Shown here piece by piece: positions 5,020-14,036 of a DNA stretch of 64,000 nt; positions within the stretch are counted from its first letter, which is position 1, and the number at the start of each line of letters is the position of its first letter. The notes beneath the pieces were generated by a model, which saw only the letters and a program-made list of their open reading frames with translations, was not told where the DNA came from and ran no database searches. Where the stretch lies: assembly GCF_030505395.1 (NCBI RefSeq), contig NZ_CP130044.1:977001-1041000 (forward strand). Reading direction: 5' to 3'. A program made the translations under genes and the position numbers. This DNA comes from Asticcacaulis sp. ZE23SCel15 (GTDB taxonomy: Bacteria > Pseudomonadota > Alphaproteobacteria > Caulobacterales > Caulobacteraceae).

Positions 5020-7779
5020 ATGGCCACCGCCTCGTTTTTCAGTTTGACACACCCTGCGCGCTCGATCGCCCTGATCGATGGTGATGTCAAAATCAGCTAC
5101 GGCGACCTGTCGGCGCGTTGCGATGATCTGATGCAGCACCTGAAAACCTGCCTGCCGGGTCAGCGGGCGCTGGTGTTTTTAAGCGTGCGCAATGATACCA
5201 AATCGGTCGTGCGCTATCTGGCCTGTCTGCGGGCAGGCTATGCCGTCCATCTGTTTTCGGACTATGAGCCAGCGCGTCTGGATGATCTGATTGCGCGCTA
5301 TAATCCGCATTTCGTGATCCGGCCCGAAGCGGCTGACCATGATATCACGGCCCGCCACGCTCAGGATCTGGGCCTGCATCCGGACGTCAGTGTTTTATTG
5401 TCAACATCAGGCTCAACCGGCACGGCCAAGCTGGTCAAGTTGTCGGTTAAGAACCTACAAGCCAATGCCCACTCGATTGTACAATATCTTGAACTGACGG
5501 CCAAGGACCGGGGGCTGCTCAATCTCAAATTCAGCTATTCCTTCGGCCTGTCGATCCTGCACAGCCATCTGTTGTGCGGTGGATCGGTCGTCTTAAGCGA
5601 AGCTTCGGTCACCGACGCTGACCTGTGGCAGGCGGTTAAGACCCACAAGGTTACCGGCCTGTCCGGCGTGCCCTATAGTTTTGAAGTGCTGGAACGCAGC
5701 CGATACCTCGATCATCTGAAAACCCTACGCTATGTCACTCAGGCGGGCGGCAAACTGTCGCCTGCGCTGGTCACCCGCTATGCCGCACTCAGCCAACAAC
5801 AGGGCTGGAAGTTCTATGTGATGTACGGCCAGACCGAGGCCGCCCCGCGCATGGCCTATCTGCCGCCTGATATGGCGACCCGCTACCCTGACTGTATCGG
5901 TCGCGCCGTCCCCGGTGGCCGCCTGTGGCTTAAGGGCGAAGACGGTACGGAAATCACCACCCCTGATACGCCCGGCGAACTGGTCTATGAGGGCGACAAC
6001 GTCATGATGGGCTATGCTGAGGCCCTGCCCGATCTTGCCCGTGACGACCAACTTGACCATCTTCTGACCGGCGACATCGCCTGCCGCAACGCGGACGGCC
6101 TGTTCTATATTATTGGCCGCGCCAAGCGCTTTATCAAACCGTTCGGTGTGCGGCTGAACCTTGATGATGTCGAACACAGGCTGCGGGAACGGCTGGGCGA
6201 GGTTGCCTGCACCGGCACGGACGATAAGATCGTCATCGCCACCACCGCCGATACCGACATAGACGCTTTGAGCGCATGGGTCTGTGAAACCTATAAACTG
6301 CCAGCCTTTATGGTGTCGGTGCTTAAGGTTGAGGCTATTCCGCGTCTGTCCAATGGCAAGACCGACTATCAGACCCTGTTGCGTCAGGCCGAACAGCCAA
6401 AGACAATAGCCAATGGCCATTCGGCGCCCAAATCACGCTGGGCCAGCATTGAAGCCATATACACGGCCCTGTCAGGTGCCAAAGCGCTGGATGGTAGCTC
6501 CACCTTTGCGTCGCTATCCGGGGATTCGCTGTCCTATGTGCAGATATCTCTGGCGATCGAGGACTATCTCGGCTTCCTGCCCGAAGACTGGGAAGCGCAG
6601 ACCATAGATGCCCTCGAAGCCATGCGGGGTCAGGTGGTGCCTGAGACCGCAGGCAACCGGTTGCATTATCTCAATACCTGCCGCGTGCTGATGCTGCTGA
6701 TGGGGATTCCCTACCACGCCGCTATGGTGTTCAGCGAACATAAGGACTGGCTGATCACCTCAGCCCACACCTCACATTTTGCGACCATTTTTGCCGCCAC
6801 CACCCACAGCTTTCGGATGTTCGCCTTCTTTTTCATCAGCGGCTGTTTCTCGCTGCTGATCCTGAAGCGCACCGGGGTCAGAAAATGGTTCGACCGTCAG
6901 TTCGTGCGTCTGGGCGTACCGGTTATTCTGGGCAGCCTGCTGCTGGCCCCGCTTGAGATGGCCGCCATGTCAGTCACACCCGGCCGGGAAGGTCCGCCCG
7001 CCTTTGAATATTGGCTCAGCATGGTCACCACCTTGTCGCCGCAATGGATCACGCACCGCTGGTTCCTGATTACGCTTTTGGCTCTGATTGGCCTGCTGGC
7101 ACTGGTCTGGGGACTACATAAGCGCGGTCTGACCGGCCATTTGCCGCAGCGCTTGCTCGATAAGGTCAGCGCCAGACCCAATCTGGTCTGGTGTCTGATG
7201 CTGGTCTTTCTGTCCGGTTGGGGGCTTGGGCTGGCGGCTTTGGGCCGGATTTTGAGCGCGGAACATGACCTGCTGTTCGGTGTGTATGAATATCGCTCGA
7301 TACTGGCGTTCGGCCCGGCCTTCTTTCTGGGGGCCATACTGGCGGGGCAACCTAAGCTGTTTAACTGGTTCCTCAAGCCGTCAGCCTTTGCCTATGTCTT
7401 GGGGGCCGCGCTGATCTGTGTCTTTGTATATTTCGATCACTCCCATACGTTCATTGGTAAGATTGCCCAAAACATCAACTGGTTGCCGTGCGGCCTTTTG
7501 GGGACGCAGATCTTCCTCAGTCTGATGCACAAATGGGCCAATAAACCCCACCCGATGGTGGCGCGCCTGCTCGATGCCTCCTTCGTCATCTATCTGTGGC
7601 ACATGGTGTTTGTACTGGTGTTTAGTGGCATATGTATTGAGCTTGATATTGATCCGCTGCTGTCGATTGCCCTGACCACCACAGGCACCCTGATCTGTTC
7701 CTGGGGCGTTTATCTGGGCATTGCCCGCTCAAAGATTTTAAGCTTCATCTTCAACGGCGGGCCATTGCGGACGGTTTGA
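5020..7779 (+). CDS. Adenylation / acyl-carrier / acyltransferase-3 fusion protein
   Basis: A 919-aa three-part protein. Residues 1 to about 455 are an ANL adenylate-forming domain: P-loop motif LLSTSGSTGTAK at 127-137, YGQTE at 269-273, GD at 351-352, the hinge segment GRAKRFIKPFGVRLN, and the catalytic-type lysine in LSNGK at residue 447. Residues about 475-540 look like an acyl-carrier domain with the phosphopantetheine Ser at 503 in GDSLS. From about 546 to the end is a multi-pass acyltransferase-3 / OpgC-like domain (start LHYLNTCRVLMLLMGIPYHA, HSFRMFAFFFISGC, late YLWHMVF). The inferred role is to activate a carboxylic acid, load it on the built-in carrier, and pass it across or at the membrane to a glycan or lipid. 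The substrate is unknown. The DUF418 gene follows 57 bases later on the same strand. Confidence 0.8.
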   Translation: MATASFFSLTHPARSIALIDGDVKISYGDLSARCDDLMQHLKTCLPGQRALVFLSVRNDTKSVVRYLACLRAGYAVHLFSDYEPARLDDLIARYNPHFVIRPEAADHDITARHAQDLGLHPDVSVLLSTSGSTGTAKLVKLSVKNLQANAHSIVQYLELTAKDRGLLNLKFSYSFGLSILHSHLLCGGSVVLSEASVTDADLWQAVKTHKVTGLSGVPYSFEVLERSRYLDHLKTLRYVTQAGGKLSPALVTRYAALSQQQGWKFYVMYGQTEAAPRMAYLPPDMATRYPDCIGRAVPGGRLWLKGEDGTEITTPDTPGELVYEGDNVMMGYAEALPDLARDDQLDHLLTGDIACRNADGLFYIIGRAKRFIKPFGVRLNLDDVEHRLRERLGEVACTGTDDKIVIATTADTDIDALSAWVCETYKLPAFMVSVLKVEAIPRLSNGKTDYQTLLRQAEQPKTIANGHSAPKSRWASIEAIYTALSGAKALDGSSTFASLSGDSLSYVQISLAIEDYLGFLPEDWEAQTIDALEAMRGQVVPETAGNRLHYLNTCRVLMLLMGIPYHAAMVFSEHKDWLITSAHTSHFATIFAATTHSFRMFAFFFISGCFSLLILKRTGVRKWFDRQFVRLGVPVILGSLLLAPLEMAAMSVTPGREGPPAFEYWLSMVTTLSPQWITHRWFLITLLALIGLLALVWGLHKRGLTGHLPQRLLDKVSARPNLVWCLMLVFLSGWGLGLAALGRILSAEHDLLFGVYEYRSILAFGPAFFLGAILAGQPKLFNWFLKPSAFAYVLGAALICVFVYFDHSHTFIGKIAQNINWLPCGLLGTQIFLSLMHKWANKPHPMVARLLDASFVIYLWHMVFVLVFSGICIELDIDPLLSIALTTTGTLICSWGVYLGIARSKILSFIFNGGPLRTV

Positions 7780-7836: not shown

Positions 7837-9066
7837 ATGGGCGAAATAACAGATATGGGAAATACCGTGGCGGCCACCAAACCTGAGTTCACCCCGCGCA
7901 TGGAGGGTCTCGACGCTCTGCGCGGCTTTGCCCTGTTTGGGCTGTTCATCGTCCATATGCCGGAACTGTTCGAGCTTTACTGGGCTCATCCGGTCACCGA
8001 TCCGGCTCAGCTTATCTGGCACGATGTTATCTTCACAGTATTTGCCGGTAAGGCCTTTGCGCTGCTGGCCCTGTGTTTTGGGGTATCGTTCTTTATTATT
8101 ATGGATCGTGCCGCCGAAAAAGGCGTCGATTTCACCGGCCGGTTTATCTGGCGGTTGACGGTTCTGTTGCTCATCGGCTGTGCGCACGCTGTCTGGTATC
8201 GCGGCGATGTGCTGGAAGTTCTGGCGGTTATGGGCCTGTGCCTGCTGCCGTTTTACCGCGTGAAATCCAATGTCGTGATCGCCGTCATCGGCGTGTTTTT
8301 CCTATTGCAGCCCTTGATGTGGATGCAGATCATTAGCGGCCTGAACGGTGCCGACTGGGCCAATCAGTCGTTAAAATTCTGGAGCGCAAAGATCCCCGAA
8401 GCTTACCTAAGCGGCGGGTTTGCTGAGACCATCGCCATGAACATCAGCGATGGCCACGCCTTTAAATGGCTATTTATGTACGAATCCGGTCGCCTGAGCC
8501 AGATTCTGGGTCTGTCCCTGATCGGCATGGTGTTGGGCCGGATCGGCTTTTTCCGCGAGCCTGCCCGCTTTTCCGGCGTGCGTCTGACGGGGCTGATCAT
8601 CGCGCTGATCGCCGCCATCGGGCTTTATTTTAGTCGCGAATCCATCACCGACCTCATGCCCGCGACCGAGGCCATGTTCATGCCCCGTAACCTGTTTGGG
8701 TCGGTCGTCTCCAGCCTGTTTGACCTGAGCCTCATGGCGGCACTTATGCTGGGGTTCATGAGCCTTTATTACAGCTTTGCCCACAAGGCGCTGAATGTGC
8801 TGGCCCCTGCCGGTCGGATGACTCTGACGCTCTATGTGACGCAATCGCTGATTTTCGTGCCGGTGTTTTATGGTTATGGATTGGGGATGCACGCCACCAT
8901 GACCCAGTCCGAGGCCGTACTGATCGGGCTTGCCGCCTTCGCCGCTCAGGTCGCCTTTGCCCATCTGTGGTTCAAGGCGTTTTGGTATGGCCCGCTGGAA
9001 TGGCTATGGCGGGCGGCAACCTATCTGACACTAAAAGTGCCATTCACGAAGTCAAAAACGCCCTGA
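7837..9066 (+). CDS. DUF418 (YeiB-like) integral membrane protein
   Basis: This 409-aa polytopic protein has the DUF418 signature pattern: LDALRGFALFGLFIVHM near the N-terminus, AGKAFALLALCFGVSFF, and near the C-terminus APAGRMTLTLYVTQSLI and FWYGPLEWLWR. Around ten hydrophobic segments are apparent. DUF418 proteins are distant relatives of membrane acyltransferases and their biochemical role is not established. The position directly after the acyltransferase fusion suggests a shared pathway, by inference. An alternative in-frame ATG is at 7855. The 3' end overlaps the convergent gene at 9044 by 23 bases. Confidence 0.85.
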   Translation: MGEITDMGNTVAATKPEFTPRMEGLDALRGFALFGLFIVHMPELFELYWAHPVTDPAQLIWHDVIFTVFAGKAFALLALCFGVSFFIIMDRAAEKGVDFTGRFIWRLTVLLLIGCAHAVWYRGDVLEVLAVMGLCLLPFYRVKSNVVIAVIGVFFLLQPLMWMQIISGLNGADWANQSLKFWSAKIPEAYLSGGFAETIAMNISDGHAFKWLFMYESGRLSQILGLSLIGMVLGRIGFFREPARFSGVRLTGLIIALIAAIGLYFSRESITDLMPATEAMFMPRNLFGSVVSSLFDLSLMAALMLGFMSLYYSFAHKALNVLAPAGRMTLTLYVTQSLIFVPVFYGYGLGMHATMTQSEAVLIGLAAFAAQVAFAHLWFKAFWYGPLEWLWRAATYLTLKVPFTKSKTP

Positions 9067-9742
9067 GCGGCACATATAGCCCCAGCCGGTTATTCCACGC
9101 CGCCCGCTGCATCAAGGCACTCAGCCAAGCCACATAGGCCTGTGCCATCATGAATGACAGGTCGTAATAGGCACGGATCATATCGCTTAAGGCATCGACA
9201 TGTGGCACCGACATCTCAACCTCGTCGGCCACCGGCTGAAACCGGATAGGTTGGGCGGGCGAACCTTCTGCGGGCTTTAGCCCCATCGACAAACCGTGGC
9301 GGACATAGGCCTCCAGGCCTGCGCCGTCATAGGTTCGCAAATGCGCCTCTGCCTCCGGCTGAGTTTGCCGGCCGGCATCAAAGGCGTAATAACCAAGGAT
9401 GGCCCGGCATACCGCCATATCATAGGTATGCTGGATGCGGCCCTTATGGCTCATGACGCGGTGAGGGCTTGGGCGGTTTTCATTGACCGTTTCAAGCCGC
9501 GCCTTAATCGCCCGTATGCGCGGCTTATCGGTGTGCCAGTCGGCGCTGATCGTGCCGATATGGGCGTTTTGCACCCCGCATAACCGCGCCAGCCCCCGCT
9601 GAGTCAGATAGAGGCTGTCATCACTAAGACAGCCCATGCCAACGCCATCATATTCGCCGTAAAGCGTTATATAAAGATTTGAAATCTGGGGTTGTTTTCG
9701 CTTACGCCCTTTTTTAACAACCGTTTTGACGGCATCGGACAT
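9044..9742 (-). CDS. Unrecognised protein with a helix-turn-helix-like segment
   Basis: This 232-aa product starts at ATG 9742 (MSDAVKTVVKKGRKRKQPQ). An upstream in-frame TTG at 9784 is less likely because GAGGGG lies about 9 bases before the ATG. A very basic N-terminus is followed by YLTQRGLARLCGVQNAHIGT, which resembles a helix-turn-helix, so DNA binding is possible. The rest (RVMSHKGRIQHTYDMAVCRA, YDLSFMMAQAYVAWLSALMQ) matches nothing I recognise. Some phage anti-repressor-like proteins have a similar look, but this is weak. A perfect CtrA box lies 63-77 bases upstream, and a palindrome covers the ribosome binding site. It overlaps the convergent DUF418 gene by 23 bases. Confidence 0.7.
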   Translation of the reverse strand: MSDAVKTVVKKGRKRKQPQISNLYITLYGEYDGVGMGCLSDDSLYLTQRGLARLCGVQNAHIGTISADWHTDKPRIRAIKARLETVNENRPSPHRVMSHKGRIQHTYDMAVCRAILGYYAFDAGRQTQPEAEAHLRTYDGAGLEAYVRHGLSMGLKPAEGSPAQPIRFQPVADEVEMSVPHVDALSDMIRAYYDLSFMMAQAYVAWLSALMQRAAWNNRLGLYVPLRAFLTS

Positions 9743-9749
9743 GACTTTA

Positions 9750-9768
9750 GACCCCTCTGTAGGGGGTC
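9750..9768. promoter_or_regulatory. Palindrome covering the ribosome binding site of the 9742 gene
   Basis: GACCCC and GGGGTC pair around a 7-base loop. On the minus strand one arm contains the GAGGGG that would act as the ribosome binding site, so a hairpin here could limit translation. Alternatively it is an operator. Both are inference. Confidence 0.45.
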
Positions 9769-9804
9769 GATACTGCAACGCCAAATTGCGCCTGACAAGG
9801 GCAA

Positions 9805-10856: not shown

Positions 10857-13800
10857 CTAGAGCGTTCTTTTAATCTCTTCGACGGTGAAACATTCGATGA
10901 AGTCACCGGCCTTAAGATCCTGGAAGCCGTTGAACGCCATACCACATTCCTGGCCGACCACCACCGAATTGACCTCGTCCTTGAAACGCTTGAGCGTCGA
11001 GAGGACGCCCATTTCCTGAATGACGATGTTGTCGCGCAGGATACGCACACGCGCCCCCTTCTCGACCCGGCCTTCGGTAACGCGACAGCCCGCAACCCGG
11101 CCAACCTTGGAGATGTCAAACACCTCAAGGACTTCGGCATTGCCGAGGAAGGTTTCGCGCTGGATCGGCGCCAGCATGCCTGACAGCACGCCTTTGATAT
11201 CATCGATCAGGTCGTAGATGATCGCGTAATAGCGAATTTCCACACCTTCACGTTCGGCCAGATCACGCGCCTGCTTGGAGGCCCGGACGTTAAAGCCGAT
11301 GATCGGAGAGTTGGAACCCTTGGCCAGTTGGACATCAAATTCCGTAATCGCACCAGCACCCGAATGGATGATCCGTGCACGGACTTCGTCAGTCGCCAGC
11401 TTATCGAGCGAGCCGATAATCGCTTCGGTCGAGCCCTGAACATCAGATTTGATGATCAGCGGCAGTTCCTTAAGGCGCTTATCCTGAAGCTTCGACATCA
11501 TGTCGGTCAGAGAGACCGCACCGACCGGAGCCACCATCTTTTCACGACGAACGCGCTGACGGTACTCGGTAATCTCACGGGCACGGGCGTCGCTTTCAAC
11601 CACGGCCAGAGTATCACCGGGATCAGGCGCGCCGTCCAGACCGAGGATTTCGACTGGCTCAGACGGACCGGCCTCAGCCAGTTGTTCATTGCGCTCATTA
11701 ATAAGCGCGCGCACGCGGCCCCAGCTAGAGCCGGCCACCACAATGTCGCCACGCTTCAGCGTACCGCGCTTGACCAGAACCGTTGCCACCGGACCCCGGC
11801 CCTTATCGAGCTTGGCTTCGATGACCACGCCTTCGGCGGTACGGTCAGGATTGGCGCGCAGATCAAGCACTTCGGCCTGCAGCAACAGAGCTTCGATCAG
11901 ATTGTCAAGGCCGAGACCGGTCTTGGCCGAGACTTCGATAATCTGCGTGTCACCGCCCAGAGCTTCCACCACCACTTCATGTTGCAGAAGCTCGTTGATG
12001 ATGCGCTGCGGATTGGCTTCGTGCTTATCCATCTTGTTGACAGCCACGATCAGCGGCGTCTTGGCGGCACGGGCATGGTTGATGGCTTCGATCGTCTGCG
12101 GCATGACGCCGTCATCGGCTGCCACCACCAGCACCACGATATCGGTTACATTGGCACCACGGGCACGCATAGCCGAGAAGGCGGCGTGACCTGGGGTATC
12201 CAGGAAAGTGACCTTTTCACCCGCAGGCAAACGCACCTGATAGGCACCGATATGCTGGGTGATGCCACCGGCTTCGCCCGCAGCCACATCAGCTTTACGC
12301 AAAGCATCCAGCAGCGAGGTCTTACCGTGGTCAACGTGACCCATAACCGCCACGACCGGCGGACGCACAACGGTGTCGTCCGAATGGTCTTCGGCATCAA
12401 TAAAGCCTTCTTCGACGTCGGATTCCGAAACGCGCTTAACGGTGTGACCAAATTCGGTCGCGACCAATTCGGCAGTGTCAGTATCAATGATGTCGTTGAT
12501 CTTGAGCATCATGCCCTGCTTCATCAACATCTTGATGATGTCAACGGCACGGACAGCCATCCGGTTGGACAGTTCCTGCACGGTAATCACGTCAGGAATA
12601 ATGACCTCACGCGCCGCACGGGTCTGCTCGGCCTGTGAACCCTTACGCTTTTCGCGCTCACGTTCACGGGCACGGCGCACCGACGCCAGTGAGCGCATCC
12701 GGTCGGCCGAGCCCTCACCGTCACCGACAACAGCTTGCAGGGTCAGGCGGCCTTCGCGACGCTTAGGTTCACCACGGGTTTGCGAGACGGCCTTGACGGG
12801 CGCGCCCGCCTTGCCGCGCTTGCCGCGGGCGTCATCATCTTCACCGACGCGGCCACGGACATCAGCCGGCTTACCGGCAGGGACAGCGCCGCGCGATGAA
12901 CGGATGCGGTCAACTTCGGGTGTCGCGGGCGCATTGGCCGAAACGCCTACGCCAGGACGCGGCGGACGCGGCGAATTGGCAGAATAACGAACGGTTTCAC
13001 CACCGGCAGGTCTTGGACGATCGCCTTGCGGTCTGTCGCCCTGCGGACGGTCACGGTTAAACGGCGGACGATCCCCTTGAGGACGATCACCCTGCGGGCG
13101 GTTGCCCTGATAACCCGGACGATCCCCTTGTGGACGATCACGGTTAAACGGCGGACGGTCACCTTGTGGCCTATCACCCTGGGGGCGGTCGCCTTGCGGA
13201 CGATTACCCTGATAGCCCGGACGATCCCCTTGCGGGCGGTCACGGTTAAATGGTGGCCTATCACCCTGGGGACGGTCGCCTTGCGGACGATTACCCTGAT
13301 AGCCCGGACGATCCCCTTGAGGACGGTCGCCTTGCGGGCGGTCGCGGCCAGCTTGATAGGTCGTGGTTGGCCGATCCCCTTGCGGGCGGTCATTGCGGCT
13401 ATCGGGGGCGCGCTGATCATAGCGCGGACGCGGTTGATCTTCGCGCGGCGCACGGGCCGGACGCGACAGGGCCTGATCGATAGCCGGGTTAAGCTGAACC
13501 GAAGGCGCTTCCGCCTTAACGGGCTCAGGGGCCGGTGTCGGGGCGGGTGCCGCCACAGGCGCAGACGCCTCTGACTTAACAGGCTCAGCCGCAGGTGCCG
13601 GCTTTGACGCGTCTTCGGCGGCGCGGCGGGCGGCATCGGCCTGCTGACGCTGACGGGTTTCCGTCTCACGGCGCTCCTGATCGACGCGCGCTTGCTCGAT
13701 CACGCGGCGACGGGCATCCAGTTCTTCCTGACGCAAACCGCCGGGATTGCTGCCCTGGGGCGGACGCCCACCTTGGGGACGTTGCTGGCCCTGATTTTGT

Positions 13801-14036
13801 GTATTTTGCGGCTTGGGCGCGGCCATATTGCCTTCGATACGCGACCCGCCACCGGCTGGCGGCGGCACACCAATACGGCGCTTGGTTTCCACCACCACGG
13901 TCTTGGAACGGCCATGGCTGAAGCTTTGCTTCACCGTGCCGGTCGACACACTGCCGCCGACACGCGGCTTCAGGGTGAGAGGTGCCCGTGTATTGTCGCC
14001 TTTCGGCCCGTCGTTCTTATCGTTCGCGTCGCTCAT
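10857..14036 (-). CDS. infB: Translation initiation factor IF-2
   Basis: GTPase that brings fMet-tRNA to the 30S subunit. The 1059-aa protein is long for the family because of its N-terminal extension. From about residue 210 to 345 there are 14 copies of QGDRP, interspersed with three GYQGNRP and three PFNRDRP blocks. The conserved core follows: an IF2-N-like segment ([20 protein letters not shown]), the G domain with [12 protein letters not shown] (about 560-572), DTPGH and NKMDK, then domains II-IV ([20 protein letters not shown]). The ATG at 14036 has AAAGGA upstream at a long spacing. It follows ylxR after a 185-base leader with hairpins. The stop is TAG. Confidence 0.96.
13015..13405 (-). 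repeat. Tandem repeat inside infB encoding QGDRP units
   Basis: In-frame DNA repeats encode 14 QGDRP pentapeptides in a higher-order unit of roughly 29-34 residues that includes GYQGNRP and PFNRDRP. Such a tract is prone to copy-number change by slippage or recombination. Confidence 0.85.

Follow-up and report, generated by a model that had tools for sequence, protein, structure and literature searches.

Can a single polypeptide activate an acid, carry it as a bound acyl group and hand it to an acceptor outside the cytoplasm? The question is raised by a gene in the window, by which we mean the whole stretch of 64,000 nucleotides analyzed from Asticcacaulis sp. ZE23SCel15 (contig NZ_CP130044.1, positions 977,001 to 1,041,000). 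A first-pass annotation had proposed that an ANL adenylation domain, a carrier domain with GDSLS and an OpgC-like AT3 domain are joined here in 919 amino acids, and this reading was confirmed by Pfam, NF003014, a predicted model and the conservation of Ser503. The gene spans positions 5020..7779 of the plus strand, including the stop codon, as judged from its ORF, Pfam matches, orthologues and dN/dS. The ANL domain (5020..6384, plus strand, residues 1-455) matched Pfam AMP-binding above the cut-off, has the catalytic Lys of the C-terminal subdomain, and carries STSGSTG, YGQTEAAPR, GRAKRFIKPFG and Lys447, which we take to be core motifs A3, A5, A8 and A10. The acyl-carrier domain (6442..6636, plus strand, residues 475-539) was delimited by family conservation and the predicted model, and the codon of Ser503, the predicted phosphopantetheine site within GDSLS, lies at 6526..6528 of the same strand. 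The OpgC-like AT3/TmAT domain (6655..7770, plus strand, residues 546-917) was found by Pfam, NF003014 and the predicted model. Its acyltransferase identity, already suggested by the annotation, is borne out by a match to Acyl_transf_3 above the Pfam cut-off and by the TMH1 Arg and His and the TMH9 Tyr; Arg555, His566, Trp681 and Tyr858 are kept. That the ANL-ACP-AT3 architecture resides in one protein is practically certain.

The carrier is the part that Pfam alone would not file, its PP-binding score in the window protein being 14.2 bits, below the gathering threshold of 20.8. In a predicted model of the ACP and AT3 parts (pLDDT 85.6, pTM 0.86), Ser503 begins a helix within a small helical carrier fold, at residues 475-540, where the annotation had placed it. 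Because the fold and the Ser agree, we take the low score as a limit of the Pfam model. A Foldseek search of PDB with the same model gave no match at E≤0.001, and a phosphopantetheinyl transferase profile search of the window genome gave one PF01648 match. When the window gene was compared with four orthologues, dN/dS was 0.06-0.24 for the ANL domain, the linker plus carrier, and the AT3 domain; each of the three domains is under purifying selection.

The distribution of the architecture was analyzed by a profile scan of genome contigs, from which the best 80 of at least 575 confirmed stretches were retained; this set is biased to near relatives, because the best-scoring matches were kept. Carrier and AT3 were scored in it with HMMs built in this analysis. 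ANL, ACP and AT3 were present in a single ORF in 67 of these 80 loci, so a one-off fusion confined to the window lineage was discarded as an explanation. The other 13 comprised six loci with SGNH-type C-termini, L058, L080, four stand-alone ANL-ACP genes and one ANL only. Relatives among the best 80 of at least 575 belong, from titles and taxonomy, to Pseudomonadota, Actinomycetota, Cyanobacteriota, Acidobacteriota and Bacteroidota. Of 385 genomes drawn across the class, 32 matched at E≤1e-30, and ordinary ANLs account for many of these; 12 of the loci were fetched, and a long ORF containing a carrier motif was seen in five, namely the window gene, L041, L042, L045 and, at greater distance, L051. 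Plasmid records gave 102 matches, none covering more than 80% of the query, and the 25 matches listed are annotated as AMP-binding protein or AMP-dependent synthetase. The family is therefore widespread but sparse. A full-text literature search, with most subscription papers and all preprints outside its coverage, found no description of an ANL-ACP-AT3 protein.

Conservation was counted in a non-redundant set of 54 proteins. Lys447, Phe496, Ser503, Pro521 and Trp524 occur in 54/54, so that the phosphopantetheine Ser expected of homologues is invariant, and His566 in 51/54. At E≤0.01, all 54 matched the Pfam family AMP-binding, while 44 matched Acyl_transf_3, 38 matched PP-binding and 4 matched GDSL lipase. 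In a tree of the ANL-ACP part (59 rows), the window fusion and the OpgC-like fusion of Roseomonas fall in different supported groups (3 changes, 2 forced). At one Rubellimicrobium locus (L074) we saw by eye an apparent acpP upstream and fabF downstream of the fusion.

Within the genus, the full fusion is present in 6 of 25 genomes, the window genome included, and the closest named genome record among the matches listed is Asticcacaulis endophyticus (97%). The fusion adjoins the same DUF418 gene in five of these six (90-97% identical), and rbfA and truB lie on its opposite side in four of the five syntenic genomes; in L034 an overlapping ORF was picked at the place expected for them. The sixth full fusion (G021, 50%) adjoins an apparent flippase and glycosyltransferases. 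Other congeners carry variants: ANL-ACP and AT3 as neighboring genes in G011 and G014; an ANL together with SDR and LuxE genes and a 79-aa ACP-like protein encoded on its own in G019; and, in G022 (L039), broken ANL-ACP pieces with stop codons and a membrane-protein ORF alongside. In the window, the DUF418 (YeiB-like) gene directly follows the fusion (7867..9066, plus strand; the start at 7867 is taken from 399-aa orthologues, and 7837 is also possible), and this linkage, a matter of gene order only, is kept in the window and in 4/4 close relatives. PMC12423673 counts DUF418 in the TmAT superfamily, and on that account two proteins of the superfamily are encoded in tandem. In L036, a DUF418 relative of 37% identity is found a few kilobases away from the split pair. 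Two further ORFs of the window were recorded. One (9044-9784, minus strand) encodes a 246-aa protein with no Pfam match that is 86-95% identical in four close congeners. The other is IF2-like (10857-14036), 1055-1067 aa long in the window and three congeners, and shows by eye many repeats of a 13-letter type in its N-terminal part (about 12980-13460, minus strand).

The loci that depart from the single-ORF layout are informative about what the ANL-ACP module works with. All six stand-alone ANL-ACP genes examined have an AT3 gene at most 81 bases away (L036, L037, L059, L061, L063 and L065), and Pfam confirmed the AT3 partners of the first four. Near the ANL-ACP gene of L059 there are two such genes; the 337-aa AT3 is the nearest, but groups with two RxxR-less controls, and the 334-aa AT3 is the likelier partner. 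Fusions of ANL-ACP to an SGNH-type domain (L067, L068, L071, L076, L077 and L128) share, in 6/6, a cluster of MBOAT-type neighbors (Pfam was run on the neighbor in L076). The MBOAT-type gene follows the fusion in L067, L071, L076, L077 and L128, from Photobacterium, Massilia and Pseudoduganella, and in all five, those with a readable C-terminus, the encoded protein ends in FIYFQF. We take this string to be the hexapeptide of DltX and other MBOAT proteins. A C-terminal hexapeptide with a Tyr is common to these proteins according to PMC12148441, which also describes other MBOAT/SGNH pathways as working without a carrier protein. By eye, the C-terminal domain is soluble in L058 and a different membrane domain in L080; that of L058 looked GNAT-like but matched no NCBIfam family, and this assignment was dropped. 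In L125 a gene for an ACPS-family phosphopantetheinyl transferase overlaps the 3′ end of the fusion by 4 bases, an arrangement that favors a phosphopantetheinylated carrier. At no other of the 80 loci was this gene found by a single-sequence search.

The acid was approached through the adenylation pocket, whose positions, presumably those of PheA numbering, were placed via an alignment of the family profile to LgrA. The pocket consists of Gly176, Leu/Met177, Leu/Ile/Val180, Ala/Ser215 (3 exceptions), Thr240 (49/54), Ala242, Met268, Ala/Pro276 (1 exception), Arg277 and Lys447, with Gly176, Ala242, Met268 and Arg277 in 54/54 fusions. The pocket Met and Arg recur in 14/14 relatives of other layouts, versus 1/19 and 0/19 other ANLs, and an ANL encoded in a row of ACP, SDR, ANL and LuxE genes (L038, 8342-11890) has the pocket residues of the fusions. 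The Asp of core A4, which holds the amine of an amino acid, is replaced by Gly176 in 54/54. In this set, which was chosen by similarity, the pocket likely accepts one non-amino acid or a narrow set of them, and our guess is that the Arg would pair well with a hydroxy acid or with an acid that has a second carboxylate. Since the pocket is near-fixed, the acid, once found, may hold for the whole family.

We propose, as the likely reading, that the protein acts by itself as a carrier-dependent transmembrane acyltransferase. Its domains and conserved residues are observed; the chemistry would run as follows. The cytosolic ANL domain would adenylate a small non-amino carboxylic acid and then form a thioester between this acid and the phosphopantetheine arm that Ser503 of the carrier domain bears. 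The AT3 domain would take the acyl group from this arm in cis, at the place where ordinary AT3s take acyl-CoA, and the group would pass through the AT3 pore to be transferred, His566 helping, to a hydroxyl of an extracytoplasmic acceptor.

A glycan is a reasonably likely acceptor. By eye, glycosyltransferase, flippase or nucleotide-sugar genes surround L035, L036 and L037 (genus), and L058, L062, L070, L072 and L084; the window gene and several relatives lie outside glycan clusters. For the window organism, a more specific proposal is that the protein replaces OpgC of an opgG-opgH pair and acylates an osmoregulated periplasmic glucan. This is a tentative idea, on the doubtful side, for which the AT3 part provides the starting point, because it matches NF003014 (MdoC) over positions 3-374 of 386 with 170.8 bits, half of the 338-bit equivalog cut-off for OpgC/MdoC. 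It is also consistent with the presence of opgG in 6 of 25 genus genomes, which include all five with the syntenic fusion. In the window genome, opgG has a large neighbor that fits opgH (L135:7621-11078, minus strand), and by eye no opgC was seen at that locus. However, the five syntenic genomes are closely related, opgG is accompanied by the split form in the sixth genome that has it (G014), and 24 of the 25 genus genomes have some NF003014-like gene. In a further search, opgG was found in 7 of 11 genomes. Co-occurrence with opgG was rejected as a rule, since G021/A. taihuensis and Roseomonas pecuniae have a fusion but no opgG.

Instead of a surface polymer, the same mechanism could acylate a small molecule for export or a lipid (metallophore, antibiotic or glycolipid); this alternative, which we consider unlikely, draws on loci of Actinomycetota. 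Genes for FbpA and FbpB were found within 8 kb in the flanks of 17 of 34 actinobacterial loci (L079, L092, L099, L101, L103, L105, L107, L111, L112, L116, L118, L120, L121, L124, L129, L130 and L131), versus 0 of 46 others; their gene order takes three forms, and the 17 include closely related loci. L144 shows the link as well. The two proteins were placed by phmmer because some neighboring ORFs were mis-called in GC-rich loci. The FbpA of L111 matches ferric-iron binding proteins of solved structure with E down to 3.5e-125, and an NCBIfam search did not name it as an iron protein. On plasmid pMYCCH.01 of M. chubuense NBB4, an iron substrate-binding protein, a permease, an ATPase and the fusion are encoded in one row. 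An AT3 review (PMC9558356) devotes a section to Nod factors and antibiotics. Against a small molecule or lipid stand the glycan clusters seen by eye around relatives of other phyla, and inspection of 19 actinobacterial and other loci revealed no siderophore synthesis genes beside the fusion. A bold reading of the Fbp link, which we hold to be improbable as a whole, is that the family is an unnamed carrier-dependent TmAT/AT3 branch, in which one near-fixed-pocket ANL-ACP module was joined repeatedly to different AT3s, and also to SGNH plus MBOAT, the CoA-gripping motif was then lost and the same small acid is delivered outside, the product in Actinomycetota being a surface-held ferric-iron ligand that feeds the adjacent FbpABC importer.

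We return to the carrier-dependent mechanism and its donor. The AT3 domain might still use acyl-CoA, with ANL-ACP supplying something else and the fusion serving co-regulation only. The shown donor for studied AT3s is CoA, which is argued for over ACP in PMC9558356, and the CoA site includes the TMH3 RxxR, the TMH1 Asp, the TMH2 Phe and the TMH1 Arg/His residues according to PMC12423673; the Asp is described as dispensable in OacB. These residues were compared in 46 fused AT3s (a non-redundant choice from the alignment), 7 partner AT3s and 21 controls, the last a non-random sample of 10 own-genome AT3s (of 14 Pfam matches), three OpgC-like proteins of congeners and eight from other loci. L157 and L159 (wrong-strand ORF) and L052 and L053 (near-duplicates of the window protein) were left out of the RxxR count, and the AT3 gene adjoining the L060 fusion belongs to no group. 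RxxR is intact in 0/46 fused and 0/7 partner AT3s versus 16/21 controls (1, 0 and 16 if any RxxR in the segment is accepted), a contrast with a Fisher p of 3e-12 that ignores relatedness, 37 of the 46 fused AT3s being one group. The Asp (4/46, 1/7 and 16/21) and the Phe (7/46, 0/7 and 17/21) follow the same order of groups. Retained throughout are the TMH1 Arg (45/46, 6/7 and 19/21), the TMH1 His (46/46, 7/7 and 20/21) and Trp681 (46/46, 7/7 and 21/21); the TMH9 Tyr is found in 46/46 fused, 2/7 partner (the other five have Phe) and 17/21 control AT3s. With Asn552 where Asp is usual and an RxxR segment that begins with Gln627 instead of Arg (Gln627-x-x-Arg630), the window AT3 lacks the TMH1 Asp and TMH3 RxxR of CoA-using AT3s. 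RxxR is also missing in 5/21 controls, which have no known carrier, so that its absence is no proof of a carrier donor.

In the AT3 tree the fused members fall into five groups: 37 plus the L037 partner; L070, L091, L108 and L127; L084 plus five partners; window plus L055; and L056 plus L057. For the label fused there are five changes, all forced. Five separate couplings were rejected as a reading of this number, some being changes between fused and partner; with controls set against the rest there are again five changes, three of them forced by supported branches, with gains and losses indistinguishable and several branches long. The coupling of AT3 to the carrier module would thus have arisen several times, with three changes forced. 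The RxxR break also differs: Gln replaces the first Arg in the window and L055, and the second in L056 and L057, and an unfused OpgC-like AT3 (L155) that groups with the window AT3 (98/94) keeps the Asp and RFFR. We read this as a repeated loss of the CoA grip after the carrier took over. Because RxxR has been lost in fused and partner AT3s of several lineages, the donor is probably a carrier-bound acyl group rather than acyl-CoA, which gives independent support to the annotation's proposal that no CoA intermediate is needed. This pattern and the invariant carrier Ser (54/54) make continued use of acyl-CoA quite improbable, even with the TMH1 Arg retained in 45/46. A chance or decayed fusion without function, of which the broken version in G022 might be an example, is practically negligible given the dN/dS of each domain and the 67 fusions among the best 80 of at least 575 loci.

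If the proposed carrier dependence holds, this wide family would add a second donor class to a superfamily held, in PMC9558356, to use acyl-CoA; its tethered donor could be used to capture an AT3 during catalysis; and any adenylatable acid, not only those with CoA esters, could reach the cell surface.

Four known systems lie near the window protein. An NRPS A-PCP didomain (LgrA, or the EntE-EntB fusion) is alike in that an alignment of the family profile with LgrA covers both ANL and carrier; the window protein ends instead in a membrane acyltransferase, and no condensation or release domain was matched in it by Pfam at E≤1, so that it is not an NRPS module. The ACP-SDR-ANL-LuxE-LuxC genes of Aeromonas group II flagellar glycosylation islands, to judge from the gene names in PMC7874193, resemble the L038 row, and differ from the fusion in having a separate ACP gene and LuxE instead of a membrane transferase. 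Among AT3s, OpgC/MdoC, which transfers succinyl groups to periplasmic glucans, is alike in its nearly full-length alignment to NF003014, but the window protein has half the required score, a fused ANL-ACP, and Asn552 and Gln627 at CoA-site positions. AT3-SGNH proteins (OafB, OatA) share the TmAT fold, the TMH1 Arg and His and the TMH9 Tyr; the window protein has no SGNH domain, does not retain RxxR, and its donor is predicted to be carrier-bound.

A fifth system, parallel in logic, is Dlt (DltA ANL, DltC carrier, DltB MBOAT, DltX, DltD SGNH), which the annotation had likened to the window protein with all steps in one chain. As in Dlt, an acid would be adenylated, held as a carrier thioester and used by a membrane acyltransferase. 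The SGNH-type cousins with their FIYFQF-ended MBOAT-type neighbor resemble Dlt in each of its parts, as if DltA, DltC and DltD had been joined and DltB left separate. The comparison holds for the domains and these cousins; it does not hold for the membrane part, which is AT3/TmAT (Acyl_transf_3) and not the MBOAT DltB. The window protein further differs from Dlt in joining activation, carrier and membrane transferase in one chain, and in having Gly176 where an amino-acid (D-Ala) pocket has Asp. We conclude that: i) the window protein would work like Dlt yet does not belong to it, and ii) it contains an AT3 domain but departs from the pattern of the CoA-using AT3s.
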